Shown: positions 93 through 15,853 of the stretch, one piece after another | How positions within the stretch are numbered: position 1 is the stretch's first letter | Layout of the letters: the number at the start of each line of letters is the position of its first letter | From: Chryseobacterium tructae | GTDB lineage: Bacteria; Bacteroidota; Bacteroidia; Flavobacteriales; Weeksellaceae | Assembly: GCF_030409875.1 (NCBI RefSeq) | Contig: NZ_JAUFQR010000001.1 | Span: 4,464,001-4,528,000, forward strand | Direction: 5' to 3' | Length of the DNA: 64,000 bases | Translations under genes and position numbers: made by a program | Notes under the pieces: generated by a model | The model's database searches: none | What the model saw: the letters and a program-made list of their open reading frames with translations, nothing else | Told to the model about the DNA's origin: nothing

Positions 93-1034
93 TTAATTTT
101 GAAATGCTTGATAAAAAGCAGTTTCAATTTCTTGTTGATCGTTTTCAGTATATCTTCTTGAAAAGTGAATCGGAATGGCCTCTTTTACCTTGCACTCATT
201 CATAATTTTTCCTGATGCAGAGGCAAAACTGTGATAATTAATCTTTGCAAATTCCTGATCCGAATCCTTGTAAAATGTTTCAATATAGACTTTATCTGCA
301 TTATTGAAGACTTCTTTTATCTTTTTATAATTGTCTTCATCAGCAGCATGATCCATGATTACTCCTAATTTGTAACCTTCATTTCTGGTCAGCAAATGAA
401 ACAAATCTGATGCTTTATACAAAGTTCCTTCTATTTCAATTTCTTTATCCGAGTCATTATTTTCAAAGGCTGCTTTCAGTTCACTGATCCATTTTCCTTT
501 CTTAAAATCAGAAGCATTTTCATGAAAAGTAACAGTATCCTTTTCTTTAAACAGGTACGCAATGGAATCTGTTTTGTGATCCAGAATGGCAAAATCTACA
601 TTTACATATTCATCTTCAAAAAGGAAATGCTGAGTCTTTACATATTCAATATTCCAGTAAGGAGGACGAATTGCATAAACCTTAATTTCTTCCTTGGAAA
701 TAATTTCATGGATTTGATATTCAATTGCATTTTCATCTATTAAATTCCACGTGTAAGATTTTAATCTTGCTCCAATTTGTTCATGAATATTTTGCGGCCC
801 GCAGATAATCACTTTTTCTCCACTTCCAATCTGATGTCTGAAAATACCATCAAAATTGGCAAAATGATCGATATGGGTATGGCTGATGAATATCGCTGAT
901 ATTGTCTGCGCTTCCTTTACCGTTAATAAACTTGCTTCTCCGCAATCACATAAATAGTGCTTTGCTGAGTTGGGAACTTTTATTAATATACTGATGTCTT
1001 CTTTTAAAAGACTTTTTATTTCTGCTTGTAACAT
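93..1034 (-). CDS. MBL-fold metallo-hydrolase (RNase Z-like)
   Basis: Protein of 313 residues with the metallo-beta-lactamase signature HTHIDH at about 52-57, further metal-ligand candidates in MDHAAD and a late HFSRRY histidine. The overall plan resembles RNase Z-type MBL hydrolases, which cut RNA 3' ends or hydrolyse phosphodiesters; the substrate here is unknown. The ATG at 1034 is preferred over an upstream in-frame TTG that lies inside the repeat. It follows the RNA-repair operon on the same strand but is separated by a terminator at 1184-1217, so it is probably its own transcription unit. REP-like repeats flank it on both sides. A role in RNA processing is inference from fold and neighbourhood. 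Confidence 0.75.
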   Translation of the reverse strand: MLQAEIKSLLKEDISILIKVPNSAKHYLCDCGEASLLTVKEAQTISAIFISHTHIDHFANFDGIFRHQIGSGEKVIICGPQNIHEQIGARLKSYTWNLIDENAIEYQIHEIISKEEIKVYAIRPPYWNIEYVKTQHFLFEDEYVNVDFAILDHKTDSIAYLFKEKDTVTFHENASDFKKGKWISELKAAFENNDSDKEIEIEGTLYKASDLFHLLTRNEGYKLGVIMDHAADEDNYKKIKEVFNNADKVYIETFYKDSDQEFAKINYHSFASASGKIMNECKVKEAIPIHFSRRYTENDQQEIETAFYQAFQN

Positions 1035-1052
1035 TGTTTCTTTCTTTTTAAA

Positions 1053-1131
1053 CCACCCCGTCAAAAATTTTTAATTTTTGCCACCCCTCCAATGGAGGAA
1101 AATTTTCACGTCTTCAATTGAGATTTTTGTG
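1053..1131. repeat. REP-like palindromic repeat, copy B
   Basis: Shares the CCACCCCGTCAAA start, the CCACCCCTCC core with a CCTCC/GGAGG hairpin, and the CGTCTTCAA segment with copy A at 1-79. The first hairpin has a different arm sequence but is still self-complementary. Confidence 0.6.
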
Positions 1132-1183: not shown

Positions 1184-1217
1184 AAAAAAGTTCCGGTAAA
1201 ATAAATTACCGAAACTT
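1184..1217 (-). terminator. Intrinsic terminator after the RNA-repair operon
   Basis: On the minus strand, a 12-base arm starting AAGTTTCGGTAA pairs with TTACCGGAACTT (one mismatch) and is followed by a T run. It lies ten bases after the stop of the ligase gene at 1227. Confidence 0.75.
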
Positions 1218-1226
1218 CATCTTTAT

Positions 1227-1817
1227 TTAAACAATAAGTTCTTTTATCGCTTTTCTATGTATACCAAAATCAGATTTCCTGATCTTACACATACGATTAT
1301 CCGCTGTATGATGGAAAACAATACCTTCCATATTATTCTCAGGATTGCTCAAAAAGTTTTTGATACATTCAAAATCCAAACTTTCTAAACTCAGAATATT
1401 ATTTCCGTGTTTTACTAATAAATGACCTTTAATATTTTCAGGGTTTCCCTGTACTTTCTCACCAATAAGTTCGTAAGTCCCCTCTTCTACTTTGCCCGAT
1501 TCGGCCAATGCATTGAACCCTTCCCAGAAGTACTGGTCATCTTTTTTCTCCATGCTACACTCTACCCAATGCGGATGATGGCCTGTAGTAAGATCTGCTT
1601 CCTGACATGGAATTGCACCTTCAGGAGCTGTTTTACCTTTTTTGGCATCGTATCTTTTGTATAATTTACCATTGATCACTGCACATGCAGAACCATCAAA
1701 CTTTTGCGTAGCAATAGCTTTTCCATCAAAAACCCAATTGTTTTCAGGATTAATTTCGTTAATAACTCGTCCTAAATTATTTATATCTTTTTTGAATAAT
1801 GTACTTATCTTTTTCAT
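1227..1817 (-). CDS. RNA ligase family protein (Rnl1/DUF5565-like)
   Basis: Protein of 196 residues carrying nucleotidyltransferase motifs of covalent ligases: motif I KFDG at about 39-42 (the lysine that takes AMP), motif III YELIGEK at 115-121, motif IV EGIVFH at 164-169 and motif V KIRKSDF at 178-184. It is much shorter than phage T4 Rnl1 and looks like a minimal adenylyltransferase core. It would seal or adenylate RNA ends. It sits downstream of an Rnl2 ligase in the same operon, so the cell would have two ligases for different end types (inference). The ATG at 1817 is chosen; an upstream TTG at 1838 is less likely. A terminator follows immediately. Confidence 0.8.
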   Translation of the reverse strand: MKKISTLFKKDINNLGRVINEINPENNWVFDGKAIATQKFDGSACAVINGKLYKRYDAKKGKTAPEGAIPCQEADLTTGHHPHWVECSMEKKDDQYFWEGFNALAESGKVEEGTYELIGEKVQGNPENIKGHLLVKHGNNILSLESLDFECIKNFLSNPENNMEGIVFHHTADNRMCKIRKSDFGIHRKAIKELIV

Positions 1818-1868
1818 TTTTAATTGCTTTAATGGCAAAAGCTCTTATTCATTGGCATCAATCCCAAA

Positions 1869-2882
1869 CTATGCTTTTGCTGAATTTAATTCTTCTTTCA
1901 CAATATCAATCACTAAAGAATTCAACTTTTTGTTGATCCTTTTCTGTTCTTCTTTTTCAATGGTTGTAAAAACTGCCGGAAAATCTTTTTCAAAATCTTC
2001 TAAAATGTCCTGTGCAAAAAGACCAATCACTTTTCCTATCATTTTAGGTTCGAATTCGCCAATTTTGCTCACCACATTATTCAAACGGTTCACGGTTGCA
2101 TATCTCTGAATTTCGTTCCAGATATTCTGAGCAGTTTCGCTGAAATTAAGCTGTTTCTGAACAATTTTATCTTGTTTTTTGACCATTTTAGACTTTTCGA
2201 TCCATTTTTCATTCTTATTTTTCAGAATGACTCTGGATCCGTTTCCAAAATATCTGGTTTTTAGAGTTTTGATAATGGTTCCTTCACACATATTGTTCAT
2301 TTCCGGCAATCCTAACCAGGTTGGGATTTTAGAATTGAAAACATTCGGGAACATCAACGCTTCTTCTAAAGTTCCTTCAAATAAGGTTTTAGCATAGAAA
2401 AATCCGGTCTCCTCAAAAATTGAGTTGGCAATATCCGTATCCAAATAAGTCACCCCATTCAACTTAATGTCGAATGCATAAAAATCGTTGTAAGGTGCAT
2501 ATTCAATTCCTGCCTGCACTTTTATAGCCTCTTTTACGGGTTCTACTTCTTTATGTTTGTAACCGCCACCAAATAATTCTCCGTAGATGACTACAGTTTC
2601 AATATTCGGGTAGATTGTTTTCACTTTTTGAAACAAATTAATTACATTTTTTCTGTATTGTTCCAAAATTTTATGTGCATTGTAAAATTTTTCCTCTTTC
2701 TCAATGAAAGCTGTTCTTTTGGCTATTTTAATTTCCTTTCCGTCGGTAAAGAAAGAGAAATTAGCTCCATGAACTTTTTCCTGCACGATGAAAACCTCAT
2801 CTCCAAAACCCTGTAGCCTGATCTGATCGATCACCCGGGTCTGGTAAGCATTTTCTATAGAGTTATATGTTTTGAAAATCAT
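1869..2882 (-). CDS. RNA ligase, Rnl2 (T4 gp24.1) family
   Basis: Protein of 337 residues, close to T4 Rnl2 in length (334). Motif I is EKVHGAN with the AMP-accepting lysine at 36, motif III YGELFGG at 100-106, motif IV EGTIIK at 200-205 and motif V ILKNKN at 219-224; the C-terminal helical part (240-337) matches the Rnl2 end-recognition domain in size. Family members seal 3'-OH/5'-phosphate nicks in RNA by an adenylated intermediate and can repair cleaved tRNA. The start lies five bases after the restored end of the DinB-like gene, so translation was probably coupled. Together with the cyclic-phosphate receiver gene two loci upstream it defines the operon as an RNA-repair module. Confidence 0.92.
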   Translation of the reverse strand: MIFKTYNSIENAYQTRVIDQIRLQGFGDEVFIVQEKVHGANFSFFTDGKEIKIAKRTAFIEKEEKFYNAHKILEQYRKNVINLFQKVKTIYPNIETVVIYGELFGGGYKHKEVEPVKEAIKVQAGIEYAPYNDFYAFDIKLNGVTYLDTDIANSIFEETGFFYAKTLFEGTLEEALMFPNVFNSKIPTWLGLPEMNNMCEGTIIKTLKTRYFGNGSRVILKNKNEKWIEKSKMVKKQDKIVQKQLNFSETAQNIWNEIQRYATVNRLNNVVSKIGEFEPKMIGKVIGLFAQDILEDFEKDFPAVFTTIEKEEQKRINKKLNSLVIDIVKEELNSAKA

Positions 2883-2967
2883 TTTTTTAATTTTTTGTCA
2901 TTTCTGACTGGTTATTTTCCATTTGGGTAAGATGTCTTTGTGCGTGAAGTGAGAGAAAATAAATGTA

Positions 2968-3450
2968 CTAATAGACATTGATTTTCCCCAGATCATTCAC
3001 AGTCATGGTCGTTTTATAAAGGAGTCCTTCACCATTTTTCATCAATTCCAGATAATTCAGGCACTGATGATATTGCTGAGTGATCAGATTTCTGATTTCT
3101 ATTAAACTTTGTTCTCCTTTTGGTTCCATGTGTTCTGGTCTTATCCATTCAAAGGCACCGTACTCACCCACTTTTTCAAAATGTTCATTATTGAAGCTGT
3201 AATTTCTAATTTCAGATTCCAGGTCAAGTTCTAAGGAATTCCGCATTGCTTTTTTTGAGCCTTTTTCAATGAGGATCAGCAAATAAAAATTCGTAAGATA
3301 GATATGCTCCAAAATCTGCTGAATTGTCCACCCACCGTTTGATGCCTGAAAATTCAATGTTGTACTATCTTTATCAAACCATCTGTCAACTTCATTAAAG
3401 CTGAGACTGAGATGATTTTTAATGTCCTGAATGAATCTGAAAATGTCCAT
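2968..3450 (-). CDS. DinB-like four-helix protein, C terminus cut by an in-frame TAG
   Basis: The 160-residue frame resembles the DinB_2/YfiT family of four-helix metal-binding proteins, with a histidine in ILEHIYLTN near residue 50 and QQYHQCL near 130. The reading frame stops at TAG (2968-2970), but the same frame continues for 26 more codons to a TAA at 2887-2889 and encodes SLHAQRHLTQMEN, a typical DinB C-terminal helix with the third metal-ligand histidine. The full locus is therefore 2887-3450. A single CAG to TAG change explains it. Restoring it leaves only four bases to the Rnl2 start and the gene overlaps the upstream receiver gene, which fits operon packing. Its role in RNA repair is unknown. 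Confidence 0.75.
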   Translation of the reverse strand: MDIFRFIQDIKNHLSLSFNEVDRWFDKDSTTLNFQASNGGWTIQQILEHIYLTNFYLLILIEKGSKKAMRNSLELDLESEIRNYSFNNEHFEKVGEYGAFEWIRPEHMEPKGEQSLIEIRNLITQQYHQCLNYLELMKNGEGLLYKTTMTVNDLGKINVY

Positions 3451-3821
3451 TACAATTTTTTAAAGTTTTTTAAAAGTCTTTCTATATTCTCCTTTCCTAC
3501 AGGGTTCATAGAATGACAGTAAAATTTCGGTAAGTCTAAATAGTTATCCAAACAATATTCTACCAGCCACTTTGCACAGTCATAGCCTGTTTTTTCCACA
3601 AACTCACCGGCATCCTGTTTCAGATAATGCTCATCTGCAAGATCATGATCAAAAGAAATCATTTCCGGAAGGCCTTTCTCTAGAATTCTATTGACAAACT
3701 GATCGTAATTCCGAACAATATGCCAGTCTCTTCTGAGAAAAATATCCTGTTTGGTATAACGATATGCCTCAATCGGATATCGTATATCATCCAGAAACAA
3801 TAGTCTTTTGGTCATTTCCAT
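3450..3821 (-). CDS. Cyclic-phosphate processing receiver-like protein (cpREC)
   Basis: Protein of 123 residues with a receiver-like fold: acidic pair in LFLDDIR at 8-14, SFDHDLAD at 56-63, and HSMNPVGKENIERL near 103-116. This matches the family annotated as cyclic-phosphate processing receiver domain, which is found with RNA ligases and is predicted to open 2',3'-cyclic phosphates left by ribonucleases. It differs from a response regulator in having conserved histidines and no partner kinase. In this operon it would prepare broken RNA ends for the Rnl2 ligase (inference from family context). Its stop overlaps the start of the DinB-like gene by one base. Confidence 0.75.
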   Translation of the reverse strand: MEMTKRLLFLDDIRYPIEAYRYTKQDIFLRRDWHIVRNYDQFVNRILEKGLPEMISFDHDLADEHYLKQDAGEFVEKTGYDCAKWLVEYCLDNYLDLPKFYCHSMNPVGKENIERLLKNFKKL

Positions 3822-3851
3822 CGTATTTTTTTTTAAAGTTCTGAGTTCTAT

Positions 3852-4637
3852 CTAATCTTCATGAATCCAGTTTACAACGGTTTTCAGGAAGTGTAACCTT
3901 ACCTCTTCAAACCTTGTAATATTGGGAATATGATTAATTTCCAATAAATGTTTATGACCGTTTTTCTGAACGATATAATCATTCGCGATCACATCCATTC
4001 CTATTTTTTCTTTTAACATCAGGGTATCCTGTAGAAGTTCTGCATCAATTTCCATGAATTGGGCATCGTCCGGATGTATGGATTTTAACCATGTTTCTCC
4101 TTCAAGCTTGATCTGCCAGGATTTTTCACCAATGTTTAAAATTCTTACAGCATCGCCTTCAAAATAAGGCTCCAATACACTGTTTTCTGTACTTTCCCAG
4201 CTTCCTGTAAATTTATGTTTGTTCTCTCCACAGTGCCAGTTTCCCCATTTTGCCACTAACTCGGTATCTGTATTCACATAAGCTCCTGCAGAGATAAATC
4301 CTCTTTGGGAATTAAATTTTGAGTACTTCATCGCTTTGGCAAGACAAGGAATTTTCAACCTACATTCGAGCATTCCGTAAGCGTTTGGGAAACATGGGCC
4401 GTTCCAAAGAGCCAATCCAGCGATAAGATCAAGGTCATCTTCAAAAATTCCATGATAAACAACCTTATCTACCGGAAGCATTCCTACTCCCTGAGCTTTT
4501 TCCACATATAATGTTCCATCCACTACTTTTATCATCGGAATGGATTGATGCCAGATCATAAGACCATCATAATGTTGTCGTATATATTCGTATTCCTGTT
4601 CGTGTAAGCCGATAACGGCTATTCTATTGTGAGTCAT
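3852..4637 (-). CDS. ATP-grasp domain protein
   Basis: Protein of 261 residues. The C-terminal half shows ATP-grasp features: EPYFEGDAVRILNIG near 155-170, a basic segment WQIKLEG, and the metal-binding end HLLEINHIPNITRF near 228-241, similar to RimK and glutathione synthetase ends. The N-terminal half has no motif I can name. ATP-grasp enzymes ligate a carboxylate to an amine or thiol through an acyl-phosphate. It is one of two ATP-grasp genes in the operon, both unlike each other at sequence level. Substrate unknown; tagging of a protein or a tRNA-linked amino acid would be speculation. Confidence 0.7.
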   Translation of the reverse strand: MTHNRIAVIGLHEQEYEYIRQHYDGLMIWHQSIPMIKVVDGTLYVEKAQGVGMLPVDKVVYHGIFEDDLDLIAGLALWNGPCFPNAYGMLECRLKIPCLAKAMKYSKFNSQRGFISAGAYVNTDTELVAKWGNWHCGENKHKFTGSWESTENSVLEPYFEGDAVRILNIGEKSWQIKLEGETWLKSIHPDDAQFMEIDAELLQDTLMLKEKIGMDVIANDYIVQKNGHKHLLEINHIPNITRFEEVRLHFLKTVVNWIHED

Positions 4638-4655
4638 GTTTTTAGTTTTTTTGTG

Positions 4656-5201
4656 TTATTTTCTTAACACGTGATATAATAGTTTGGCGGTATTATAAGC
4701 ATCATCTGCTCCGCTGTGGTTATTCCCTTCAAATTCAAGATTTCTGATCTGGAGTTCTTTTAAAAGACCTTTAGGCTTCTCTCCTTTCATTAAACTTATG
4801 AGTATTTTCAAATCAATATAAGTGTCACTGAAAGGGAATCTTGTCCCCAATTCTCTACATTGATCTTCAATAATTTCCTTATCAAATCCGCCGAAACCCG
4901 AATAGATTCTGATCAGAGAATTGTATCTGTTCCTGATCCTTGAACAGGCTTCCTGAAAAGAGATTCCTTCTTTTTCCAGTTTTTCTGCTGTAATTCCGGT
5001 CAGCTTTGTACAATATTCGCTTACTTCGGATTTGTAAGGTTTTACGAAATAACTTCTTTTATCTTCGATGCTTCCATCAGCCATATTCAGCTTGCAGATT
5101 CCGATTTCAATAATTTCCCTTTCCTGGTTTTCAGGAGGCTTTTCGTCTTCCCAGCATGTAGCTTCTATGTCTATTACTGTAATTTTATCATACAAAAGCA
5201 T
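4656..5201 (-). CDS. DEDDh 3'-5' exonuclease, ERI1/KapD-like
   Basis: Protein of 181 residues with the exonuclease motifs DIEAT (11-15), GGFDKEII (around 105-111) and HSGADDAYN with H162 and D166, the DEDDh arrangement. The segment FVKP...SEYCTKLTGIT and the ending GADDAYNTAKLL are typical of the ERI-1/3'hExo/KapD branch that trims RNA 3' ends. The ATG at 5201 was chosen because the Exo I motif begins 10 residues later; the longer frame would run into the upstream ATP-grasp gene. In the RNA-repair operon it could trim damaged 3' ends before ligation (inference). Confidence 0.85.
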   Translation of the reverse strand: MLLYDKITVIDIEATCWEDEKPPENQEREIIEIGICKLNMADGSIEDKRSYFVKPYKSEVSEYCTKLTGITAEKLEKEGISFQEACSRIRNRYNSLIRIYSGFGGFDKEIIEDQCRELGTRFPFSDTYIDLKILISLMKGEKPKGLLKELQIRNLEFEGNNHSGADDAYNTAKLLYHVLRK

Positions 5202-5212
5202 TGTTTTAATTT

Positions 5213-5989
5213 TTAATTGGAAAAGTAGAAATTCAAAGCTTTGATCACACTTTTCACGTTGGTATTGGGATAAAATCCGGAACTGTTGATGCAATTGATT
5301 TCAACGATTTTCCAATCTTTATCCGTTAAACAGATATCCATTACAAAGGCTTCTTCAAGAGTAAACAACTGAATCATCTTTTTTGCAAAATCCAATCCGT
5401 CCTGTGAAACATTTTCTTCGAAAGGAGCATTATCATTAAATCTGTAGTAGCCACCATCCACAATTTGCCCACCAACGATCCAAAGCCTTGCTTCTTTTAC
5501 AGTTCGCTTAGCTTCAGAAGTCTGAATTAAAGAATCTTCTGTAATTCTGTTGCCTGTATCTTCCAGTCTTTCAAAAACGAAATCCTTCCACTCTGATTCT
5601 GTAAAAACTTTTCCTGTGAAAATTTTTGCTTCATTGTATGGTTTAATGAATTTCTCTTCATCTTTTTCCCATTGTAATGTTTCAGAAATTTTATGAACAG
5701 AAACCTTATGATTCAACAGGTTTTCACCATAATATTGAGAGTATACCTCATACAAATGATTTCCACCATAAAAAGAACCGAGAAACCAGTCTGAATTTTG
5801 TTTTGCCAGTCTTGCAATCGTCACTGAACCATAGACAAAAACATCTTTTCTATCTGTTTCAAAGTCTATTTTATCTGCTGTTGGAGGAATATTAATGACA
5901 TCGTAGTCAATATTCAATTCTTCCAGGGCCTCAAAAATTTTGTAATGATCCGGATCTAAATACACATTAGACTGAATTAAAAAATACAT
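5213..5989 (-). CDS. ATP-grasp protein, R2K/DUF4343-like
   Basis: Protein of 258 residues resembling the ATP-grasp R2K clade (DUF4343): an N-terminal Rossmann-like part, KEARLWIVGGQIVDGGYYR near 165-183, and the metal-binding end DICLTDKDWKIVEIN with the following NSSGFY near 219-241. This clade includes CDC123 and phage or host conflict proteins and has been predicted to attach peptides or amino acids to a target. It lies 11 bases upstream of the exonuclease gene. Its co-occurrence with RNA ligases and tRNAs is the main clue to function; the substrate is unknown. Confidence 0.7.
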   Translation of the reverse strand: MYFLIQSNVYLDPDHYKIFEALEELNIDYDVINIPPTADKIDFETDRKDVFVYGSVTIARLAKQNSDWFLGSFYGGNHLYEVYSQYYGENLLNHKVSVHKISETLQWEKDEEKFIKPYNEAKIFTGKVFTESEWKDFVFERLEDTGNRITEDSLIQTSEAKRTVKEARLWIVGGQIVDGGYYRFNDNAPFEENVSQDGLDFAKKMIQLFTLEEAFVMDICLTDKDWKIVEINCINSSGFYPNTNVKSVIKALNFYFSN

Positions 5990-6023
5990 GGTTATTGGTT
6001 TTAATCTTTAATTTTTTATCTTG

Positions 6024-6508
6024 TTATACCATCATATCTGCACAATTGGAACTTGCGAAGGCAAAAGGTTTTGCTTTAAACACATATCCCATTCCAAGAA
6101 TATATCCCATGGCATCTTTTAGTGCTACATTGGATTTAAAATCCGGATCGGTATTAATGTCTGCGTGTACCTCCATTTCCACTCCATAAGTGTCCAATAC
6201 AGAACAGATTGCATAAGCGATTTCAACAGATTTGTTGACTTCATTCAGCATTCGTTCTTTGATACTGATGTTCTGTATTTCTCTTTCTTTCTGATAAAGG
6301 TAAACGCTCCTTTTCCTTCACGAATAAATACGACTGCCGTAGCATAATTAATAGCTTCTCCATATACATGAGAGTCTGATCCCACACATACTTTCAAACG
6401 GTGTCCGTTTGCTTGTTCGCGAATAATGGCTTCTTCTACCAGCTGTGCGATAGAGTGTTGGAAAATTTTTCCGTTCATATTCTGCCATGTTTGTTGTTGC
6501 GTTTCCAT
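6024..6508 (-). pseudogene. YkuK/DUF458-family RNase H-like protein, frameshifted
   Basis: Two frames (6245-6508 and 6024-6251) form one protein of about 160 residues like YkuK, a predicted RNase H-fold protein. The first half has VCVGSDSHVYGEAINYATAVV, broken here as SDSH plus a following hydrophobic strand; the second has VEMEVHADIN near a metal site and ends in SSNCADMMV. The join is in a purine run at 6277-6294: adding one A turns the end of frame one into IRKEREIQNISIKER, which flows into MLNEVNKSVEIAYAI. This looks like a homopolymer sequencing error rather than decay. It is the first gene after the tRNA array and heads the RNA-repair operon. Confidence 0.8.
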
Positions 6509-6628
6509 TTTTTCTACATACTTTAATTTATAATTGATAATGATTGTTGATAATTAATTGGTGAATGTTCAATAGTAAATTTTAAAATTGACCACAAAGC
6601 GGATTAGCTATTGACTATTCATTTTTTG

Positions 6629-6699
6629 CACTCCGAACCGGACTCGAACCAGTACCATCAGTTTTGGAGACTGAGATGCTACCATTACACTATCAGAGT
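6629..6699 (-). tRNA. tRNA-Trp(CCA)
   Basis: Cloverleaf with acceptor ACTCTGA/TCGGAGT, T-loop TTCGAGT, anticodon loop CTCCAAA and discriminator G. No encoded CCA. It is the last tRNA of the array, 120 bases before the YkuK-like gene. Confidence 0.9.
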
Positions 6700-6707
6700 A
6701 AATATTG

Positions 6708-6780
6708 TTAATTCATTAGGACTCGAACCTAAACATCAAGAATCAAAATCTTGTGTGCTGACCAATTACACTATGAATCA
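6708..6780 (-). tRNA. tRNA-Gln(TTG)
   Basis: Acceptor TGATTCA/TGAATTA, anticodon stem CAAGA/TCTTG with loop TTTTGAT, T-loop TTCGAGT. The stems are AT-rich, more like a phage tRNA than a chromosomal tRNA-Gln. Confidence 0.85.
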
Positions 6781-6881
6781 GATTTAAATTCATGAGTAAT
6801 AAGTAATTGGTAATGAGTAATGTTAAAAGACAGTCAAGTATCAAAGATGACTCATTATATTACTTATCATTCATGTTTTTG

Positions 6882-6954
6882 TGGAACAGACAGGAATTGA
6901 ACCTGTACCTTTAGTTTTTCAGACTAACGTGCACACCAAGTACACCACTCTTCC
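6882..6954 (-). tRNA. tRNA-Phe(GAA)
   Basis: Anticodon stem TTAGT/ACTAA, loop CTGAAAA; acceptor GGAAGAG/CTGTTCC with one G-G mismatch; T-loop TTCAATT; discriminator A. Confidence 0.88.
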
Positions 6955-7013
6955 GTATTTTATGAGTAATGATGAAACTACTTTTCTATCATTTATTGCT
7001 TATTATAAAAAGT

Positions 7014-7067
7014 AAAAGGTTGTCTCTTTTTATTGACTAAAGATCTTCTGCGCTTGACAAACCTTTT
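7014..7067 (-). repeat. Inter-tRNA covarying stem-loop, copy 1
   Basis: Minus strand: AAAAGGTTTGTC pairs with GACAACCTTTT (one bulge). The loop starts AAGCGCAGAAGATCTTTA, nearly identical to copies 3 and 5. A T-rich tract follows. Between tRNA-Glu and tRNA-Phe. Confidence 0.75.
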
Positions 7068-7171
7068 CTCTTTTCTTTATTTGTGTGAATGGCAACTGGC
7101 CAATGTTTTTTTAAATCTGAACTTTCATGGTATTAAAATCAATTCAATATTGACCAGTTATTCACATCCAG

Positions 7172-7243
7172 TACTCTATAAGGGAATCGAACCCTTGTTT
7201 TCTGCTCGAAAGGCAGGCGTCCTTACCGTTAGACGAATAGAGC
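7172..7243 (-). tRNA. tRNA-Glu(TTC)
   Basis: Acceptor GCTCTAT/ATAGAGT, anticodon loop CTTTCGA, T-loop TTCGATT, discriminator A. Confidence 0.88.
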
Positions 7244-7319
7244 ATTTTTTATAAGCAATAAGTAATGGGTGTTTAGTAATCTATCATGCATTACTTATTG
7301 TTCATTATTAAAAAAGAAC

Positions 7320-7372
7320 AAGCTTGTCTTTAAATTTGCTTAACAAAAAGAACTTCTACGCTTGACAAGCTT
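7320..7372 (-). repeat. Inter-tRNA covarying stem-loop, copy 2
   Basis: Minus strand stem AAGCTTGTC/GACAAGCTT, perfect nine pairs; the loop starts AAGCGTAGAAGTTCTTT. Compared with copy 4 the stem changes on both sides and stays paired. Confidence 0.75.
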
Positions 7373-7413
7373 TTCTTTCGAAAATTATATTGAGCATTTA
7401 ATATTTTCTTTGA

Positions 7414-7484
7414 CCTACTGACTAGGAATCGAACCTAAACAACAAGAGTATATTTCCTGCATGCTGCCATTACATTATCAGCGG
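7414..7484 (-). tRNA. tRNA-like, apparent anticodon TAT, no U33
   Basis: Acceptor CCGCTGA/TCAGTAG (one mismatch, one wobble), D stem ATGT/GCAT, anticodon stem CAGGA/TCTTG, T-loop TTCGATT. The seven-base loop is AATATAC, giving TAT at 34-36 (Ile AUA) but A at 32 and 33 where U33 is nearly universal. Either a degenerate tRNA or one not meant for normal decoding. Confidence 0.6.
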
Positions 7485-7489
7485 TTGGG

Positions 7490-7573
7490 TGGAAGTAGTA
7501 GGATTCGAACCTACTCAGCAATGAAGCAACAGATTTACAGTCTGACCCGACTCTCCAACTTCGGCGTACTTCC
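7490..7573 (-). tRNA. tRNA-Tyr(GTA), class II
   Basis: Perfect acceptor GGAAGTA/TACTTCC, anticodon loop CTGTAAA, long variable arm, T-loop TTCGAAT, discriminator A. Six bases upstream of the TAT tRNA-like gene. Confidence 0.93.
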
Positions 7574-7630
7574 GGATTTTTTCATGAGTAATTGATCATT
7601 CATTACTTATTGCTCATTATTGATAAAAAG

Positions 7631-7692
7631 AAAAAGCCTGTCTGTATTCTGTGTTTTGGCTTAAAGATCTTCTGCGCTCGACAGACATTTTT
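7631..7692 (-). repeat. Inter-tRNA covarying stem-loop, copy 3
   Basis: Minus strand stem TGTCTGTC/GACAGGC with flanking A and T runs; the loop starts GAGCGCAGAAGATCTTTA, nearly the same as copies 1 and 5. Confidence 0.72.
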
Positions 7693-7769
7693 CTTTTATT
7701 AATAAAGGATATTTCTTTATTCTCATAAGTGATGAATACTTCTTTCTGATCCCTTACAATTTTACTTTG

Positions 7770-7851
7770 AGATGGCTATGGGATTCAAACCCACTCAGCT
7801 TACGCAACGGTTTTGCAGACCGCCCCGACTCTTCCGCTTCGGCGAACCATC
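7770..7851 (-). tRNA. tRNA-Cys(GCA) with class II body
   Basis: Acceptor GATGGTT/AGCCATC, discriminator U as in tRNA-Cys, anticodon stem GCGGT/ACCGT with loop CTGCAAA (GCA). The D arm and long variable arm resemble those of the tRNA-Tyr at 7490-7573, whereas ordinary tRNA-Cys is class I with a short variable loop. Confidence 0.8.
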
Positions 7852-7895
7852 AGATATTAATATGAGTAATTTTTAATGCCTATTATTCAAAAAAC

Positions 7896-7942
7896 AAAGT
7901 CTGTCTATATTTTTGTTTGAACTTCTGCGCTTGACAGACTTT
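7896..7942 (-). repeat. Inter-tRNA covarying stem-loop, copy 4
   Basis: Perfect ten-pair stem AAAGTCTGTC/GACAGACTTT, the shortest loop of the family, beginning AAGCGCAGAAGTTC; followed on the minus strand by a T-rich tract. Confidence 0.78.
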
Positions 7943-8004
7943 TATTTTTACCTAAAATTGTATTAATCATATTTTTAGTTTCTAACTGTTGATGATTGAG
8001 AAAG

Positions 8005-8065
8005 AAAAAGCTTGTCTGTATTTTTGTGTTTGATGTAAAGATCTTCTGCTCTTGACAAACTTTTA
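8005..8065 (-). repeat. Inter-tRNA covarying stem-loop, copy 5
   Basis: Minus strand stem GTTTGTC/GACAAGC flanked by A and T runs; the loop starts AAGAGCAGAAGATCTTTA. Tandem with copy 4, no tRNA between them. Confidence 0.75.
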
Positions 8066-8098
8066 TTTTCTCCTGAAACAATTAACATTTAGTTACTG

Positions 8099-8170
8099 CG
8101 ATTCTGGAAAGATTCGAACTTTCAACTTCTGGTTTAACAGACCAGCGCTCTACCATTGAGCTACAAAATC
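8099..8170 (-). tRNA. tRNA-Asn(GTT)
   Basis: Acceptor GATTTTG/CAGAATC, anticodon stem CTGGT/ACCAG with loop CTGTTAA, T-loop TTCGAAT, discriminator G. Confidence 0.92.
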
Positions 8171-8175
8171 TTTTG

Positions 8176-8248
8176 TACGGGAAGAGGGATTCGAACCCCC
8201 AGCGCCTTGATCCTAAATCAAGTGTGTCTACCGTTCCACCATTCCCGC
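8176..8248 (-). tRNA. tRNA-Leu(TAG) with a short variable loop
   Basis: Acceptor GCGGGAA/TTCCCGT, anticodon stem CTTGA/TCAAG with loop TTTAGGA, Leu-like D arm GTGG...CAC, discriminator A. The variable region is only GCGCT, five bases, although bacterial tRNA-Leu is class II with a long arm. Confidence 0.82.
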
Positions 8249-8329
8249 GGCTTCTTTTATGAGTTATGAGTACTATTGAAAACTACGTTTCTGCATAGTA
8301 TTACTCATTATTTATTACTTATTATGTCG

Positions 8330-8401
8330 TCTGGAAAGCAAGATTCGAACTTGCGACCTCCCGCGTCCAAGACGGGTAAACAACCACCGTTATCTTTCCA
8401 G
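8330..8401 (-). tRNA. tRNA-Pro(TGG)
   Basis: Perfect acceptor CTGGAAA/TTTCCAG, anticodon stem CCCGT/GCGGG with loop CTTGGAC, T-loop TTCGAAT, discriminator A. Confidence 0.9.
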
Positions 8402-8469
8402 CTTTGGGGTTCACTTCTGTTTCTTTTCCGGGAGACAGCCGGATTGAAAAGTTTCGATGAACCATTTAG

Positions 8470-8543
8470 TAATCCCAGAAAGATTTGAACTTTCAACCCC
8501 CGGTTTAAAAGACCGGTGCTCTAACCCATTGAGCTATGAGATT
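8470..8543 (-). tRNA. tRNA-Lys(TTT)
   Basis: Acceptor AATCTCA/TGGGATT, anticodon stem CCGGT/ACCGG with loop CTTTTAA, T-loop TTCAAAT, discriminator A. Confidence 0.92.
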
Positions 8544-8552
8544 TTATCTTTG

Positions 8553-8623
8553 CGGTCTATGCGAGAATCGAACTCGCAGTGCCCAAGAGACAGTCGGGCA
8601 GGTTACCATTACCTCAATAGACC
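8553..8623 (-). tRNA. tRNA-Asp(GTC)
   Basis: Perfect acceptor GGTCTAT/ATAGACC, discriminator G, anticodon stem CCCGA/TTGGG with loop CTGTCTC. Position 37 is T, where a purine is nearly always found. Confidence 0.85.
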
Positions 8624-8631
8624 TTTTTTTG

Positions 8632-8716
8632 CGGAGAGCAAAGGAATCGAACCTTCACTACTGTCGTAGAACTCATTAGCAGTAAGCCGCAACAAACCAA
8701 CATTTGCCTACTCTCC
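8632..8716 (-). tRNA. tRNA-Ser(GCT)
   Basis: Acceptor GGAGAGT/GCTCTCC, discriminator G, anticodon loop CTGCTAA, long variable arm with CTAC/GTAG stem, T-loop TTCGATT. Confidence 0.9.
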
Positions 8717-8721
8717 TTTTG

Positions 8722-8795
8722 TGACTCCAACAGGACTCGAACCTGTAACCCTGGGTTTAGAAAACCCATGCTCTATCCAATTGAGCCATGGAGCC
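8722..8795 (-). tRNA. tRNA-Arg(TCT)
   Basis: Acceptor GGCTCCA/TGGAGTC, anticodon stem TGGGT/ACCCA with loop TTTCTAA, T-loop TTCGAGT, discriminator A. Confidence 0.92.
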
Positions 8796-8800
8796 ATTTG

Positions 8801-8870
8801 CCACCTCAGAAGGACTTGAACCCTCAACCTTCGGGTCACTTCCGATACTCTACCTTTGAGCTATGAGATG
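8801..8870 (-). tRNA. tRNA-like, apparent anticodon GTG, no U33
   Basis: Acceptor CATCTCA/TGAGGTG, D stem GCTC/GAGT, four-pair anticodon stem TCGG/CCGA, T-loop TTCAAGT. The loop reads AAGTGAC, so GTG (His) would be at 34-36 but 32-33 are AA. A regular tRNA-His(GTG) lies next to it, so it is redundant or not used for decoding. Confidence 0.6.
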
Positions 8871-8875
8871 AATTT

Positions 8876-8949
8876 GGGTATCTCCGGGGATCGAACCCTG
8901 TTCTCCGGTTCCACAGACCGACGCTTTACCAAATAAGCTAAAGAAACCA
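8876..8949 (-). tRNA. tRNA-His(GTG)
   Basis: Acceptor GGTTTCT/AGATACC with one T-T mismatch, C73 as usual for His, anticodon stem TCGGT/ACCGG with loop CTGTGGA. The base at -1 is T, not the usual encoded G. First tRNA of the array; its 5' end is three bases from the terminator T run. Confidence 0.82.
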
Positions 8950-8951
8950 TA

Positions 8952-8979
8952 AAAAAAGCGCCTCTTTTGGGAGGCGCTC
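8952..8979 (-). terminator. Strong terminator or attenuator upstream of the tRNA array
   Basis: Minus strand hairpin AGCGCCTC/GAGGCGCT followed by seven T. It ends the small-ORF transcript (9005-9130) and lies directly before the first tRNA, so transcription of the array either reads through it or starts within it. Confidence 0.85.
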
Positions 8980-9004: not shown

Positions 9005-9130
9005 TTAACTGACCCACGTATATAAGCACCTTTTATCCACAATTTCACTATCATAAGCACACACTCTCCCTGCCGGCTCTTGTCCGAATATTTCTGAATA
9101 CTGATTGAGTATGTTATGAAATTGTTTCAT
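9005..9130 (-). CDS. 41-residue ORF upstream of the tRNA array
   Basis: ATG at 9130, TAA at 9005. The peptide begins MKQFHNILNQYSEIFGQEP and ends VDKRCLYTWVS. It has an A-rich 5' leader as used by Bacteroidota, a good TAnnTTTG promoter about 70 bases upstream (9202-9232) and a strong terminator 26 bases downstream. No known family recognised. The order promoter, short ORF, terminator, tRNA array resembles a leader-peptide attenuator, but this is inference; it may equally be an independent small protein. Confidence 0.5.
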   Translation of the reverse strand: MKQFHNILNQYSEIFGQEPAGRVCAYDSEIVDKRCLYTWVS

Positions 9131-9201: not shown

Positions 9202-9232
9202 CAAAGTAAATATGATTTTTTCTAATCTGCAA
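9202..9232 (-). promoter_or_regulatory. Flavobacterial promoter of the small ORF and possibly the array
   Basis: Minus strand TTG, 21-base spacer, TACTTTG: fits the Bacteroidota sigma consensus TTG/TAnnTTTG. Start of transcription would fall near 9195. Confidence 0.6.
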
Positions 9233-9452
9233 ATAAATTTTTAAATTAAAATATTGATAATCAATCAATTACATCTTATTTTTAGAGTAAGCGATTTCTG
9301 TCCGCACTATTTTGCGGATATCTTAATTACCTAAATGACTGTCTCTCATTGGGTTGTCTATCACTCTACTTTATTGTATTAAAATTGCATTGTTAATTAA
9401 AAAATTTTCATGTTTATGGTTATTTTTTTTCATTCTAAATAATTTCTGACCT
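9233..9452. other. Gene-free AT-rich stretch
   Basis: No ORF or RNA gene recognised. The only structure seen is a small hairpin TCCGCA/TGCGGA near 9300-9320 on either strand. Confidence 0.5.
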
Positions 9453-9487
9453 AAAAAACAAAAAACGCCTCGATTTTTCGAGACGTT
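9453..9487 (-). terminator. Intrinsic terminator after the 42-residue ORF
   Basis: Minus strand hairpin AACGTCTCG/CGAGGCGTT followed by a T run interrupted by one G. Lies about 30 bases after the stop at 9519. Confidence 0.85.
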
Positions 9488-9518
9488 TCTGCTATATTTT
9501 GTTTAAATTTTTACGGGT

Positions 9519-9647
9519 TTACAGTAAATAATTTCCAAAGTCAGCACATTTCGCCTCATTCCATATCATCCAATCATACACGAATAATCCCAGTTTTGAT
9601 GGGCTTTCGCATAGTTCTGCATTGATATGTGCTCTTTGTATTGTCAT
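9519..9647 (-). CDS. 42-residue ORF with its own terminator
   Basis: ATG at 9647 and TAA at 9519; the peptide begins MTIQRAHINAELCESPSKL and ends EAKCADFGNYLL. A TATCTTTG minus-7 box lies 13 bases upstream of the start and a strong terminator follows, so it looks like a complete mini transcription unit. Same size and layout as the ORF at 9005-9130 but no clear sequence similarity. No family recognised. Confidence 0.45.
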   Translation of the reverse strand: MTIQRAHINAELCESPSKLGLFVYDWMIWNEAKCADFGNYLL

Positions 9648-9659
9648 AATTTTCTGGTG

Positions 9660-9667
9660 CAAAGATA
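9660..9667 (-). promoter_or_regulatory. Minus-7 box TATCTTTG
   Basis: Matches TAnnTTTG on the minus strand; no clear TTG at the -33 position. Would start a nearly leaderless transcript for the 42-residue ORF. Confidence 0.4.
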
Positions 9668-9774: not shown

Positions 9775-10026
9775 TTATTCTTTTTCTTCATCTAGTTTTT
9801 CAAGTTGGATGAATAGTTCACCCTGATAATCATAAAGACTTTTGTGCTCTGATGTTGCAATAACTACGACTTCTTTAGCTTCCATTAATGAAAATGCAGG
9901 AAATTTTTCCTTAACATCATTTATGGCATATAATGGAGATCTTCCTTTTGATATTATTTCTTGTGCAATTTCAAAGGGATTTTTATTATCATATTTATAT
10001 TGGAGATATTTAAATGTATTATCCAT
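9775..10026 (-). CDS. 83-residue protein, L7/L12 C-domain-like
   Basis: Small cytoplasmic protein. The segment AINDVKEKFPAFSLMEAKEV near residues 34-53 resembles the helix-turn-helix core of ribosomal protein L7/L12 C-terminal domains. It is the last gene of the MoxR-vWA-bpX cluster, 13 bases after the TPR-like gene. Function unknown; possibly an adaptor. Confidence 0.6.
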   Translation of the reverse strand: MDNTFKYLQYKYDNKNPFEIAQEIISKGRSPLYAINDVKEKFPAFSLMEAKEVVVIATSEHKSLYDYQGELFIQLEKLDEEKE

Positions 10027-10039
10027 TTCATTCTAAGCT

Positions 10040-11065
10040 TTAGTTTCTAAACATTTTATTTCTTCCGGTTTTAAATCGCGAAATATCTTTAAGAATCACT
10101 TCATCATCGGGATTAAAATATTTCAGCTCGTTAACAATTTCAGAGCGGGCTTCTACTTTTTCTGCAATGATCTCATAGGCAATTTTCCTGGCAACGGGTT
10201 GCAATTTAGGATCTTTTTTAAACTCATATTTCATCGCTTCCAAGTAGGTCATCTTTTTGTAAGCCGGAGTTTTTTCATAAAGACTTTGTATTTCTGCTTC
10301 CAGACTTTTAGTATCAAAGATATTGGCAAAATAGTTATTTAAACAGTTAAAGGCATCTTTATCTTCTTCCCAGCCTTTTAATAATACTTTTTGGGCTTCT
10401 TCCGGTTTTTCCATTTTCTTCCGATAAACCAACGAAGCTTTTACCATCTGATTATTAGCGGCATAGTCGTCTGCTACCATTTGATAGTAGATATGAGCAT
10501 TGTTCAAATCATTAATCTCTTTGTAAAGATCTCCTACTTTTTCTTTCTGCTCCATTTCTTTGTACAGATCAATGGCTTTTTTGTACTGTTTTGCTTTTTC
10601 ATAGCAATTGGCGGCATCGGATTTACTTTTTAGTTTTTTAAGATATACTGCTGCTGCCTCGTTATAGAATCCACCATCTTCAAGGGTTTTTGCTCCTCTG
10701 TAGTAATCCTGCAGCAAGTTCATATAGACTTTTGCTGCTTTTTTGTACTCTTTTTCTGCAATATATTTCTGAGCAAGATCTTCGTATTTACTTCGTATTC
10801 TGTCAAAAAGAGAATTTTCAAGATAAAAGTTTCCGCCTCCAGCTCCGCCTCTTTTTTTTGAATTCTGTTTATTTTGTTCTTTATCTTTTAAAAAAGCAAT
10901 AACCATAAGGATGATAAATGCTACTATTAAAAAGATCATCAAATTTCCGACAACACTCCAAAAACGTTCATGGAAAAGCTCTGCCACGATTCCGATGACT
11001 TTAAACATGGCCAACAATACAAAAGCGGCCATAAACTTGTCTATAAATTTCTGTTTATTCATCAT
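10040..11065 (-). CDS. Membrane-anchored TPR-like repeat protein
   Basis: Protein of 341 residues. Two hydrophobic segments (about 9-28 and 38-59) are followed by a glycine- and lysine-rich linker and then helical repeats such as AEKEYKKAAKVYMNLLQDYY, AAVYLKKLKSKSDAANCYE and KAKQYKKAIDLYKEM, a TPR or SNAP-like solenoid. It overlaps the upstream bpX6-like gene by 11 bases, so it belongs to the MoxR-vWA-bpX operon. It probably holds complex partners at the inner membrane. No catalytic motif seen. Confidence 0.75.
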   Translation of the reverse strand: MMNKQKFIDKFMAAFVLLAMFKVIGIVAELFHERFWSVVGNLMIFLIVAFIILMVIAFLKDKEQNKQNSKKRGGAGGGNFYLENSLFDRIRSKYEDLAQKYIAEKEYKKAAKVYMNLLQDYYRGAKTLEDGGFYNEAAAVYLKKLKSKSDAANCYEKAKQYKKAIDLYKEMEQKEKVGDLYKEINDLNNAHIYYQMVADDYAANNQMVKASLVYRKKMEKPEEAQKVLLKGWEEDKDAFNCLNNYFANIFDTKSLEAEIQSLYEKTPAYKKMTYLEAMKYEFKKDPKLQPVARKIAYEIIAEKVEARSEIVNELKYFNPDDEVILKDISRFKTGRNKMFRN

Positions 11066-15119: not shown

Positions 15120-15853
15120 TCTCTTGATTTTTCAGTGAGACGAAACGAGCTTACGGACAGGGGTCGGAAATCTGTTTTCTTTATTGGAAGATAGTTCCCA
15201 TTTACATCCCATAACAGCCATTCGTCTGACTTTTTATTATATTTTTGCTGTAAAAATGTACTCAGATTTTTAAACTCAAAATCAAAACCGGAAGGCAAAA
15301 GATGTCCGTCTTTTGTCCAGTATGTTTTTCCCGGTAGACTTAATAATGGCAATCCTAAAAATAAAGCTTTATCTTCCATTACAACCCATTCTATTTTTTC
15401 CAGTCTGAATTTTGGTAATGCTACCATACTTTCTTTGATGTCTTGGATTTTGGCTATCAAAGCAATAACCGGATGTTCTTCATTGCTTTCTTTTAATTTG
15501 ATCGAGACTTTTTCACTGATTCCAAAATAATTTTGGTTGGATGCCGGAAAAGTAAGTCTCAATGCCTTATCAATAGGCATCCAAAGCAATGCTGTGCTCA
15601 TTTTTTTACTGGGAACCAAGGCTCCTTTTTTAAATAAAAGGCCATCCCGAAGTTCGTACAGCAAAAAGTTAGGCAACTGATGAAGCTCTGAAGCTGATGC
15701 CTGTTCATCTGTAAAACCTCTGAGCCATATGATTTCATCATCCGTTGCGATCTGAACATTTTTCCAGTCTCGTATAGAGCCTAGATAATCTTCATCGGCG
15801 CGGGGAATTTCGGCCCAGAATTCTTTTATATTGTCTGAAGAATTTTCTGCCAT
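15110..15853 (-). CDS. bpX-type component between MoxR and vWA genes
   Basis: Protein of 247 residues without known catalytic motifs. It starts with FWAEIPRADEDYLGSIRDWK and contains WLRGF, and mainly short beta strands separated by turns, as expected for a small bpX-family domain of MoxR-vWA-propeller systems (bpX5-like is my best guess). It overlaps the MoxR gene by 28 bases and the vWA gene by 10 bases, which ties it to this operon. The exact bpX number needs a profile search. Confidence 0.5.
   Translation of the reverse strand: MAENSSDNIKEFWAEIPRADEDYLGSIRDWKNVQIATDDEIIWLRGFTDEQASASELHQLPNFLLYELRDGLLFKKGALVPSKKMSTALLWMPIDKALRLTFPASNQNYFGISEKVSIKLKESNEEHPVIALIAKIQDIKESMVALPKFRLEKIEWVVMEDKALFLGLPLLSLPGKTYWTKDGHLLPSGFDFEFKNLSTFLQQKYNKKSDEWLLWDVNGNYLPIKKTDFRPLSVSSFRLTEKSREWN

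Follow-up and report, generated by a model that had tools for sequence, protein, structure and literature searches.

What are supernumerary tRNA arrays for, and what switches them on? The locus described here makes this question testable in culturable environmental bacteria. It lies within a 64,000-nt stretch of the Chryseobacterium tructae genome (the window), where two pairs of leader open reading frame (ORF) and terminator, 16 tRNA or tRNA-like genes and a series of RNA-repair genes follow one another on the minus strand. Such a spare tRNA set joined to RNA-repair genes is present in Chryseobacterium and in some related bacteria. The leader ORFs and terminators upstream of the array had gone unremarked in the initial annotation of this DNA, although they are the most informative part of the locus: they suggest that array and repair genes are probably controlled by two serial ribosome-mediated attenuators that read nearly all amino acids. 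The features are listed below in window coordinates.

9660-9667, minus strand: promoter-like TATCTTTG before leader 1, presumably of the Bacteroidota -7 type; read from the sequence, conserved in the 96-locus consensus
9519-9647, minus strand: leader ORF 1, 42 codons, 20 amino-acid types
9552-9558, minus strand: arm TGAGGCG within leader 1, with complementarity to terminator 1 (5' arm)
9461-9490, minus strand: intrinsic terminator 1, 13 pairs
9202-9233, minus strand: promoter-like TTTG plus TTACTTTG before leader 2; read from the sequence, and conserved at this place in the consensus
9005-9130, minus strand: leader ORF 2, 41 codons, 20 amino-acid types
9024-9031, minus strand: arm AGGTGCTT within leader 2, with complementarity to terminator 2 (5' arm)
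8956-8979, minus strand: intrinsic terminator 2, abutting the first tRNA on its upstream side
6628-8948, minus strand: tRNA array (ARAGORN, Rfam tRNA model, reading by eye) in the order His, His-like, Arg, Ser, Asp, Lys, Pro, Leu, Asn, Cys, Tyr, Ile, Glu, Phe, Gln, Trp
about 7769-7851, minus strand: tRNA-Cys(gca), 83 nt, read by eye and called by ARAGORN in relatives
7985-8072, minus strand: array stem-loop, copy 1
7874-7951, minus strand: array stem-loop, copy 2
7611-7698, minus strand: array stem-loop, copy 3
7297-7382, minus strand: array stem-loop, copy 4
6993-7074, minus strand: array stem-loop, copy 5
6024-6508, minus strand: RNase H-like gene (PF04308), with its reading frame broken in the window
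5213-5989, minus strand: R2K_3 ATP-grasp protein
4656-5294, minus strand: RNase_T (DEDDh, KapD/ERI-like) exonuclease
3852-4637, minus strand: protein without family match
3450-3821, minus strand: cREC_REC (PF20274) cyclic-phosphate receiver-like protein
2968-3450, minus strand: DinB_2-like protein, score under the Pfam cut-off
1869-2882, minus strand: Rnl2 RNA ligase (TIGR02307, 208 bits against a cut-off of 197)
1227-1838, minus strand: RLIG1-like ligase-family protein, matching the C-terminal part of the profile
1187-1218, minus strand: terminator-like site just past the RLIG1-like gene, closing the unit

The tRNA array and its link to RNA-repair genes

ARAGORN called 15 minus-strand tRNAs between 6628 and 8948, 12 of which were recovered by the Rfam tRNA model at its gathering score. 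A sixteenth, for Cys, was not called in the window and was read by eye; in many relatives ARAGORN places Cys(gca) between Asn and Tyr. The initial annotation's count of 16 tRNAs or tRNA-like genes, with almost one for each amino acid, is thus upheld; 15 amino acids are represented. Crowded into 2.3 kb in a single direction, these genes have the density of a long tRNA array (L-array), and they are also supernumerary and divergent from the housekeeping set, as is expected of this class: the genome holds at least 99 tRNA matches (150 of 464 candidates scored), and 14 array tRNAs share 58-74% identity with host tRNAs of the same anticodon (among 40 distinct host tRNAs). L-arrays are reported to spread by horizontal transfer and to stay silent until translation is stressed. 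In the present arrays, the tRNA order is constant throughout the genus, and other families show different orders. U33 is absent from one of the two His(gtg) genes (8800-8870) and from Ile(tat) (7414-7484).

Profile matches in the window bear out the Rnl2 ligase, the second ligase-family protein, the cyclic-phosphate receiver-like protein, the ERI-like exonuclease and the RNase H-like protein that had been named from the DNA. Two ATP-grasp proteins had also been proposed; R2K_3 at 5213-5989 is one, but the protein at 3852-4637 matched nothing in Pfam, NCBIfam, PADLOC or PDB sequences and is no longer counted as the second, while a DinB-like gene at 2968-3450 had been missing from the list. The unit has two marks of an Rnl2/cREC repair operon, an Rnl2-family ligase above the TIGR02307 cut-off and a cREC receiver (PF20274), the latter occurring in 89 of 98 loci. 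No kinase match, as would be sought for the 5' ends left by metal-independent nucleases, was found among the unit's proteins, and PADLOC reported no known defence system, only generic exonuclease matches. The idea that the RNase H-like gene undergoes programmed frameshifting was considered and rejected: 96 of 98 loci have an unbroken frame, and the interruption is confined to the window and one relative (L143). Likewise rejected was a viral origin, since a viral_contigs scan gave no relative and the RNase H-like protein's phage relatives stay below 60% identity (about 39-40% in the best eight listed). In one related locus, L270, an RtcB-like ORF (named by eye) lies downstream of Band_7.

Terminator-like sites on the minus strand between 1000 and 9800 lie at 9490-9461, 8979-8956, 2596-2581 (weaker) and 1218-1187; none stands in the gap from the array's last tRNA to the first protein gene, as had been noted initially. 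Array and repair genes would form a single transcription unit, cotranscribed throughout.

In all 97 fetched relatives with an orthologous Rnl2, same-strand tRNAs lie upstream of the RNase H-like gene (ARAGORN calls two in L156 and more than two in every other locus). Among 40 Chryseobacterium genomes, the carriers of the RNase H-like gene in an order-level sample, 16 have array and RNase H-like gene without Rnl2, and 15 of these 16 carry a cREC, TROVE/Ro60-like, Band_7-like or R2K-like gene downstream of the array. The link between array and repair genes is therefore real but one-sided, with an exchangeable repair module. The joining of array and repair operon put forward in the initial annotation is conserved in every fetched Rnl2 carrier and not for every array, and the separation in related genomes that was named there as counterevidence occurs by half: arrays without Rnl2 are found, but among the 97 fetched carriers no Rnl2 without an array.

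Leader ORFs, terminators and complementary arms

Both leaders are short ORFs directly before an intrinsic terminator, as in attenuators. In the window each contains all 20 amino acids within its 42 or 41 codons, whereas among 41-residue stretches from 37 window proteins 20 types occur in 0.19% and at least 19 in 2.3%. Leader 2 was found in 97 of 97 readable loci, with 20 amino-acid types in 40 of them, 19 in 30, 18 in 21 and 17 in 6, so that its codons are not concentrated on one or a few amino acids in the manner of classical regulatory codons. Leader 1 is equally universal (the window and 96 relatives, 97 of 97) and comprises 18-20 types; 19 further loci without Rnl2 have leader 2 in every case and leader 1 in 16. 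Column resampling revealed no excess diversity in leader 2 (p 0.17). Upstream of the arm, leader 2 has no Trp in 91 of 97 loci and no Thr in 57 of 97, and the part of a leader that can serve as sensor is less than the whole. Selection at the codon level is weak (median dN/dS 0.52), with a similar picture in the +1 frame (pS 0.241 and pN 0.184 vs 0.263 and 0.171). L129 and L132 have identical arm DNA in a different reading frame. In-frame indels prevail, in 94 of the 96 loci with a correctly placed arm (in L156 the search pattern misplaced the arm, and neither its offset nor its row in alignment A1 is counted).

Folding of half-transcripts showed arm pairing in 97 of 97 loci, yet 23 of 47 background ORF-terminator pairs and 286 of 485 codon-shuffled leaders showed it as well; owing to this poor specificity the test was replaced by position-restricted arm complementarity judged against codon shuffles. 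By this measure the end of leader ORF 2 can pair with the terminator 5' arm in 96 of 97 loci, compared with 7 of 291 codon-shuffled controls, and the ORF-arm-terminator pattern arises as background 4 times in 1.6 million strand-bases (45 loci). The alternative pairing expected of an attenuator is thus present as complementarity, with no antiterminator covariation within Chryseobacterium, where the arm is invariant. All 58 aligned sequences (58 of the 97) keep terminator 2 paired, and one of its pairs shows 11 two-sided changes. An upper leader hairpin (A1 columns 18-22 with 41-45) was discarded, 82% of its cells being paired with no covariation signal. Full transcripts adopt the terminator fold in 93 of 97 cases even with a stalled ribosome, which implies that the switch must be kinetic.

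Arrays in Tenacibaculum, Dokdonia and Kordia, as well as in a second family, are headed by leaders of the same design and different sequence, and leader sequences turn over strongly between families. In Tenacibaculum-type leaders a different arm, AAGGAGAT, matches a different terminator arm, ATCTCCTT. Across 28 leaders of 18 other loci, arm complementarity was found in 19, compared with 23 of 560 codon-shuffled sequences; it was absent at the expected position in the other 9, including one from Dokdonia and one from Kordia.

A predicted gauge of the tRNA pool and its alternatives

Known attenuators sense antibiotics or the supply of one or a few amino acids. Because each leader samples nearly every amino acid, it would report on the whole tRNA pool rather than on a single amino acid. 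With all tRNAs available, a ribosome translating the leader would reach the stop codon and occupy the ORF end, and the terminator would form. Should a tRNA be depleted (cleaved, lost or uncharged), with tRNA damage as the presumed natural signal, the ribosome would stall upstream and leave the ORF end free to pair with the terminator 5' arm; polymerase would then continue past the terminator into the spare tRNAs and on through the RNase H-like gene and the repair module, until recovery of translation shut the unit again. The model builds on conserved gene content and order, on ORFs, terminators and complementary arms, and on their recurrence with different leader sequences. We give about even chances to the broader proposal that these loci represent a new Bacteroidota RNA switch, in which tandem codon-census leaders, selected for amino-acid diversity and not for sequence, gauge the whole tRNA pool and turn on a full emergency set of RNA-repair enzymes and replacement tRNAs. 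If true, a leader sampling almost all amino acids would monitor tRNA availability in general and be wired to tRNA-replacing and tRNA-mending genes, and a short near-all-amino-acid ORF with complementary arm and terminator would offer a searchable signature for further tRNA-depletion responses.

A tentative alternative is that the leaders respond to translation stress in general, as those at whiB7/wblC do, with tRNA damage not the main signal and any slowing of the ribosome, chiefly by ribosome-targeting antibiotics or amino-acid starvation, as the trigger. The whiB7/wblC leader ORFs act in this way (PMC11550727) and translation-targeting antibiotics induce the Anabaena tRNA operon (PMC10272220); however, antibiotic sensing requires no spread across nearly all amino acids, and what is regulated here is a set of tRNAs and RNA ligases, not genes for efflux or ribosome protection. 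It is improbable that the array tRNAs, instead of being working adaptors, serve toxins and repair enzymes as decoys or substrates. Their low identity to host tRNAs, the loss of U33 in a few, the higher number of stem mismatches per tRNA (1192 in 1259 array-locus tRNAs, a set that takes in a few non-array tRNAs of the same loci, vs 66 in 119 host tRNAs) and the absence of Ala, Gly and Val tRNAs among 1263 tRNAs of 98 loci would fit such a role, yet 1207 of the 1259 retain U33 and 1168 a canonical T loop, and arrays of other families do include Ala, Gly and Val tRNAs. That the leaders encode functional small proteins, with amino-acid diversity and arms incidental, is very unlikely, as the conserved open frames of like length and the prevalence of in-frame indels are outweighed by a dN/dS near 0.5, by the sequence turnover between families and by arm complementarity far above that of codon-shuffled controls.

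Relation to known systems

The Chryseobacterium unit resembles the trn/L-array (TrcR) of Anabaena sp. PCC 7120, where a long array likewise exists beside a full housekeeping set and shares its control with an RNA ligase gene, in that case rtcB along with a slipin gene (PMC10272220, PMC9938897). One repressor governs the 26-gene tRNA operon and the unlinked rtcB (PMC10272220); the initial claim that the combination is new was therefore too strong as a concept, even though the Anabaena genes are not adjacent. There, a protein repressor acts and rtcB, encoding the RtcB ligase, lies elsewhere in the genome, whereas here the repair genes, with Rnl2 and RLIG1-like ligases, are linked and control is apparently by attenuation. 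RtcR-RtcBA and Ro60 RNA-repair operons answer damaged tRNAs (PMC7790460); TROVE-like genes downstream of the array in several genomes recall the Ro60 operons, and the window unit differs from RtcR-RtcBA in having no match to the RtcB ligase or the RtcR activator.

With whiB7/wblC of actinomycetes the unit has in common a short ORF, a terminator and a predicted antiterminator answering disturbed translation, but those systems (PMC11550727) place a single leader before a transcription factor, are not linked to tRNA genes and are not known to cover all amino acids. As in the trp and his attenuators, ribosome position would select between terminator and antiterminator; their leaders (PMC1183508) are rich in codons for one amino acid, as opposed to nearly all amino acids here. 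Among the open-licence PMC papers that literature searches listed, judged by titles and abstract openings, none describes an all-amino-acid leader before tRNA genes. Finally, protein families and tRNA supply are shared with phage RNA-repair sets (Rnl ligases, cREC, R2K and phage tRNAs), which have been proposed to counter tRNA attack, with cREC-RNA ligase linkage reported in phage and cellular genomes (PMC7824862). Unlike these sets, the Chryseobacterium unit is chromosomal, conserved genus-wide and equipped with predicted leader attenuators.

The tRNA array and its protein genes

Within the window (4464001-4528000 of the largest contig; genome size 5.63 Mb), ARAGORN predicted 15 tRNAs on the minus strand, and a sixteenth, tRNA-Cys, was recognized by eye, which agrees with the 16 tRNA or tRNA-like genes of the initial annotation.

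Features of the unit and its edge, in minus-strand order
9519-9647, minus strand, leader ORF 1
9461-9490, minus strand, terminator 1
9005-9130, minus strand, leader ORF 2
8956-8979, minus strand, terminator 2, directly before the first tRNA
6628-8948, minus strand, tRNA array
6024-6508, minus strand, RNase H-like gene, frame reads as broken in the sequences of the window strain and one relative (L143), intact in 96/98 loci
93-1064, minus strand, RNase Z-like gene, below NCBIfam cut-offs, adjoining the unit beyond a terminator-like site (1218-1187)

The genome yields at least 99 tRNA hits. Fourteen array tRNAs have a same-anticodon partner among the 40 distinct host tRNAs fetched, with 58-74% identity to it. 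Array tRNA-Leu(tag) (8175-8248) has a short variable arm and measures 74 nt (host Leu 81-85), and tRNA-Cys (ca. 7769-7851) is long at 83 nt (host Cys 72), so that the two appear to have swapped variable-arm sizes in comparison with the host tRNAs. At gathering thresholds, no Rfam family besides tRNA was detected in the window.

The protein genes are those named initially, except that ATP-grasp for 3852-4637 found no support in searches and was rejected, and that a DinB-like gene had been missed. The neighboring minus-strand cluster (9775-17605) resembles ternary systems of the MoxR ATPase and vWA type.

Among 296 family genomes, 97 besides that of the window encode the orthologous Rnl2; one more genome (G212) has a distant Rnl2 only. 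All 97 relatives were fetched, and in each the RNase H-like gene is preceded by tRNAs on the same strand, whose order is largely conserved; this upholds the proposed joining of array and Rnl2 operon. Across the 98 loci (tblastn, at least half of the query covered), we counted cREC in 89, calcineurin-like phosphoesterase in 66, RNase Z-like genes near Rnl2 in 60, DinB-like in 58, R2K in 36, and RLIG1-like in 18. The RNase Z-like protein might process array tRNAs. As a single unit, however, array and operon do not hold throughout: the RNase H-like gene is present in 40/42 Chryseobacterium genomes of an order-level sample (in the window genome, its two fragments were counted as one gene), but Rnl2 is missing from 16 of these 40. 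All 16 loci were fetched, and each retains at least three array tRNAs. A cREC, TROVE, Band_7 or R2K match follows the array in 15/16, and an exonuclease match alone in the other (L261). In three Epilithonimonas genomes lacking Rnl2, a TROVE-like gene comes after the array; for one of the three, the Pfam TROVE assignment was confirmed. Since TROVE-like matches also occur in 11/98 Rnl2 loci, the repair modules are not strictly exclusive.

Within 5.5 kb, the 98 Chryseobacterium-type loci contain 1263 array tRNAs (mean 12.9). Glu, Pro, Leu(tag), His, Arg(tct), and Phe are each found in at least 80/98 loci. None of the 1263 is a tRNA for Ala, Gly, or Val, although these residues are present in many leaders; arrays of other families do hold Val, Gly, or Ala. 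Five copies of a stem-loop with a near-invariant loop (AGAAG, TCTT) lie between array tRNAs in the window (6993-8072, minus strand), with no Rfam match at gathering thresholds. Its pattern matched 279 times in 95/98 loci, always between leader 2 and the RNase H-like gene, and its stem covaries (alignment of 40/279 copies). A covariance model, with 150 of the 9788 first-look candidates scored, found at least five copies genome-wide, each inside this array, and also matched Rnl2-lacking Chryseobacterium and Epilithonimonas; matches were marginal in Tenacibaculum-type loci and absent among those listed for the searched loci of another family, f18.

Leader ORFs and terminators

A terminator follows each of two short ORFs upstream of the array, and we consider two ribosome-mediated attenuators in series, reading nearly all amino acids, a reasonably probable explanation. 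In the window, leaders 1 and 2 comprise 42 and 41 codons and each encodes 20/20 amino acids, while among 41-residue windows of 37 window proteins 20 types occur in 0.19% and at least 19 in 2.3%. Leader 2 was found in 97/97 readable loci including the window (L062, cut at a contig end, is outside this set), with 20 types in 40 loci, 19 in 30, 18 in 21, and 17 in 6. Leader 1, with 18-20 types, was present in 97/97. Nineteen Rnl2-lacking loci have leader 2 in all cases and leader 1 in 16. A strict-criteria scan of the window returned the two leaders and one extra match at 53136; over 45 loci, it gave 4 matches outside the leader region in 1.6 million strand-bases.

AGGTGCTT, located at the end of leader 2, is an arm that can pair with the terminator 5' arm in 97.8% of alignment cells; no covariation between the two arms was apparent in the alignment. 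Complementarity at this place was observed for 96/97 real leaders 2, and to an equal degree for 7/291 codon-shuffled ones of the same composition. Terminator 2 itself is paired in 58/58 aligned sequences (of 97), with G-C replaced by A-U in 11. The distance from start codon to arm is in frame in 94/96 loci with a correctly placed arm, and two loci (L129, L132) read identical arm DNA in a different frame, an argument for the arm being conserved as RNA. For the sensor part of leader 2, median dN/dS is 0.52 (1815 pairs, 72 loci) with similar values in the +1 frame, so the peptide is under weak constraint.

Transcripts ending in the terminator loop fold with arm pairing for leader 2 in 97/97 and for leader 1 in 81/83 (83 of 97 loci recovered), yet this counts little because 23/47 background ORF-terminator pairs and 286/485 codon-shuffled leaders also pair. 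Full transcripts are predicted to adopt the terminator fold in 93/97 even when a ribosome is stalled on the leader, the behavior expected of a kinetic switch. When the ribosome is modeled at the stop codon, covered RNA is left out, so that the outcome is set by construction.

Recurrence outside Chryseobacterium

Six Flavobacteriaceae loci hold arrays of 7-18 tRNAs and leaders that differ in sequence.

Leader ORFs in other Flavobacteriaceae
Dokdonia: 41 codons, 20 types; 39 codons, 19 types
Kordia algicida: 38 codons, 20 types; 47 codons, 19 types
Three Tenacibaculum and one further genome: one or two leaders each, 17-19 types

The Tenacibaculum-type arm AAGGAGAT faces the terminator arm ATCTCCTT; both sides of the proposed helix thus differ from Chryseobacterium, yet match. 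In f18, same-strand tRNAs (up to 15) lie within 1.5 kb upstream at 22/29 loci around a second RNase H-like copy, and leader candidates with at least 18 types occur at 13/29. At the f18 locus L270, a 30-codon leader (19 types) and a 38-codon leader (20 types) come first; downstream are four tRNAs, then an ATPase-like ORF, the RNase H-like gene, and ORFs resembling Band_7 and RtcB (ATPase and RtcB named by eye). In locus L290, the first leader has 29 codons and 19 types, and the second 53 codons and 20 types. Leaders are present with no tRNA in the 1.5 kb stretch in L278, L286, and L288. In L269, L278, and L288, leader candidates lie ahead of the RNase H-like gene, and the sequence fetched has no tRNA separating the two, so that repair genes lacking an array may also be under the control of the switch.

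For 28 leaders of 18 other loci, some closely related, arm complementarity was found in 19/28 versus 23/560 shuffled controls; amino-acid types were in the top 5% for 21/28, at least 17 types being itself a selection rule. Of the 80 named loci, 37 lack upstream tRNA, although for at least five of them the upstream sequence is shorter than 1.4 kb; a single weak leader candidate, L370, came from this group.

Proposed mechanism and comparison with known systems

We propose that the unit acts as a homeostatic circuit. Leader ribosomes would stall when any tRNA runs short, read-through would then supply replacement tRNAs and repair proteins, and recovery would close the terminators again. Effective stalls would be those far enough from the arm, which, judging from ribosome size, leaves about two thirds of each leader, counted from its start, as the sensor. 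Two attenuators in series, ca. 50 nt apart in L270, would lower leakage by requiring a stall at both; a conserved promoter-like stretch between the Chryseobacterium leaders suggests that leader 2 may also work independently.

Alone among the proteins, the RNase H-like one was found beside the array in every locus examined and is therefore probably central; its task is perhaps, as a guess, trimming or sorting of damaged tRNA. PIN-type tRNA nucleases leave 5'-phosphate and 3'-hydroxyl ends, the ends Rnl2 needs, which would explain why no kinase match was found among the unit's proteins. ATP-grasp ligases such as Rnl2 are described as requiring these ends (PMC7824862). Other RNA ends may be healed by cREC and the phosphoesterase.

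In Anabaena, TrcR is described as repressing a 26-gene tRNA operon together with rtcB, the operon being induced by translation-targeting antibiotics (PMC10272220). That logic is common to the present units as proposed here; control, linkage, and repair module differ. The leader ORF of whiB7/wblC is described as able to sense translation in general (PMC11550727). In the literature searched, we found no precedent for tandem leaders that span nearly the whole set of amino acids and precede tRNA genes. Attenuation as a mechanism class is already known; the new elements are how broadly the sensor reads and which kit it regulates.
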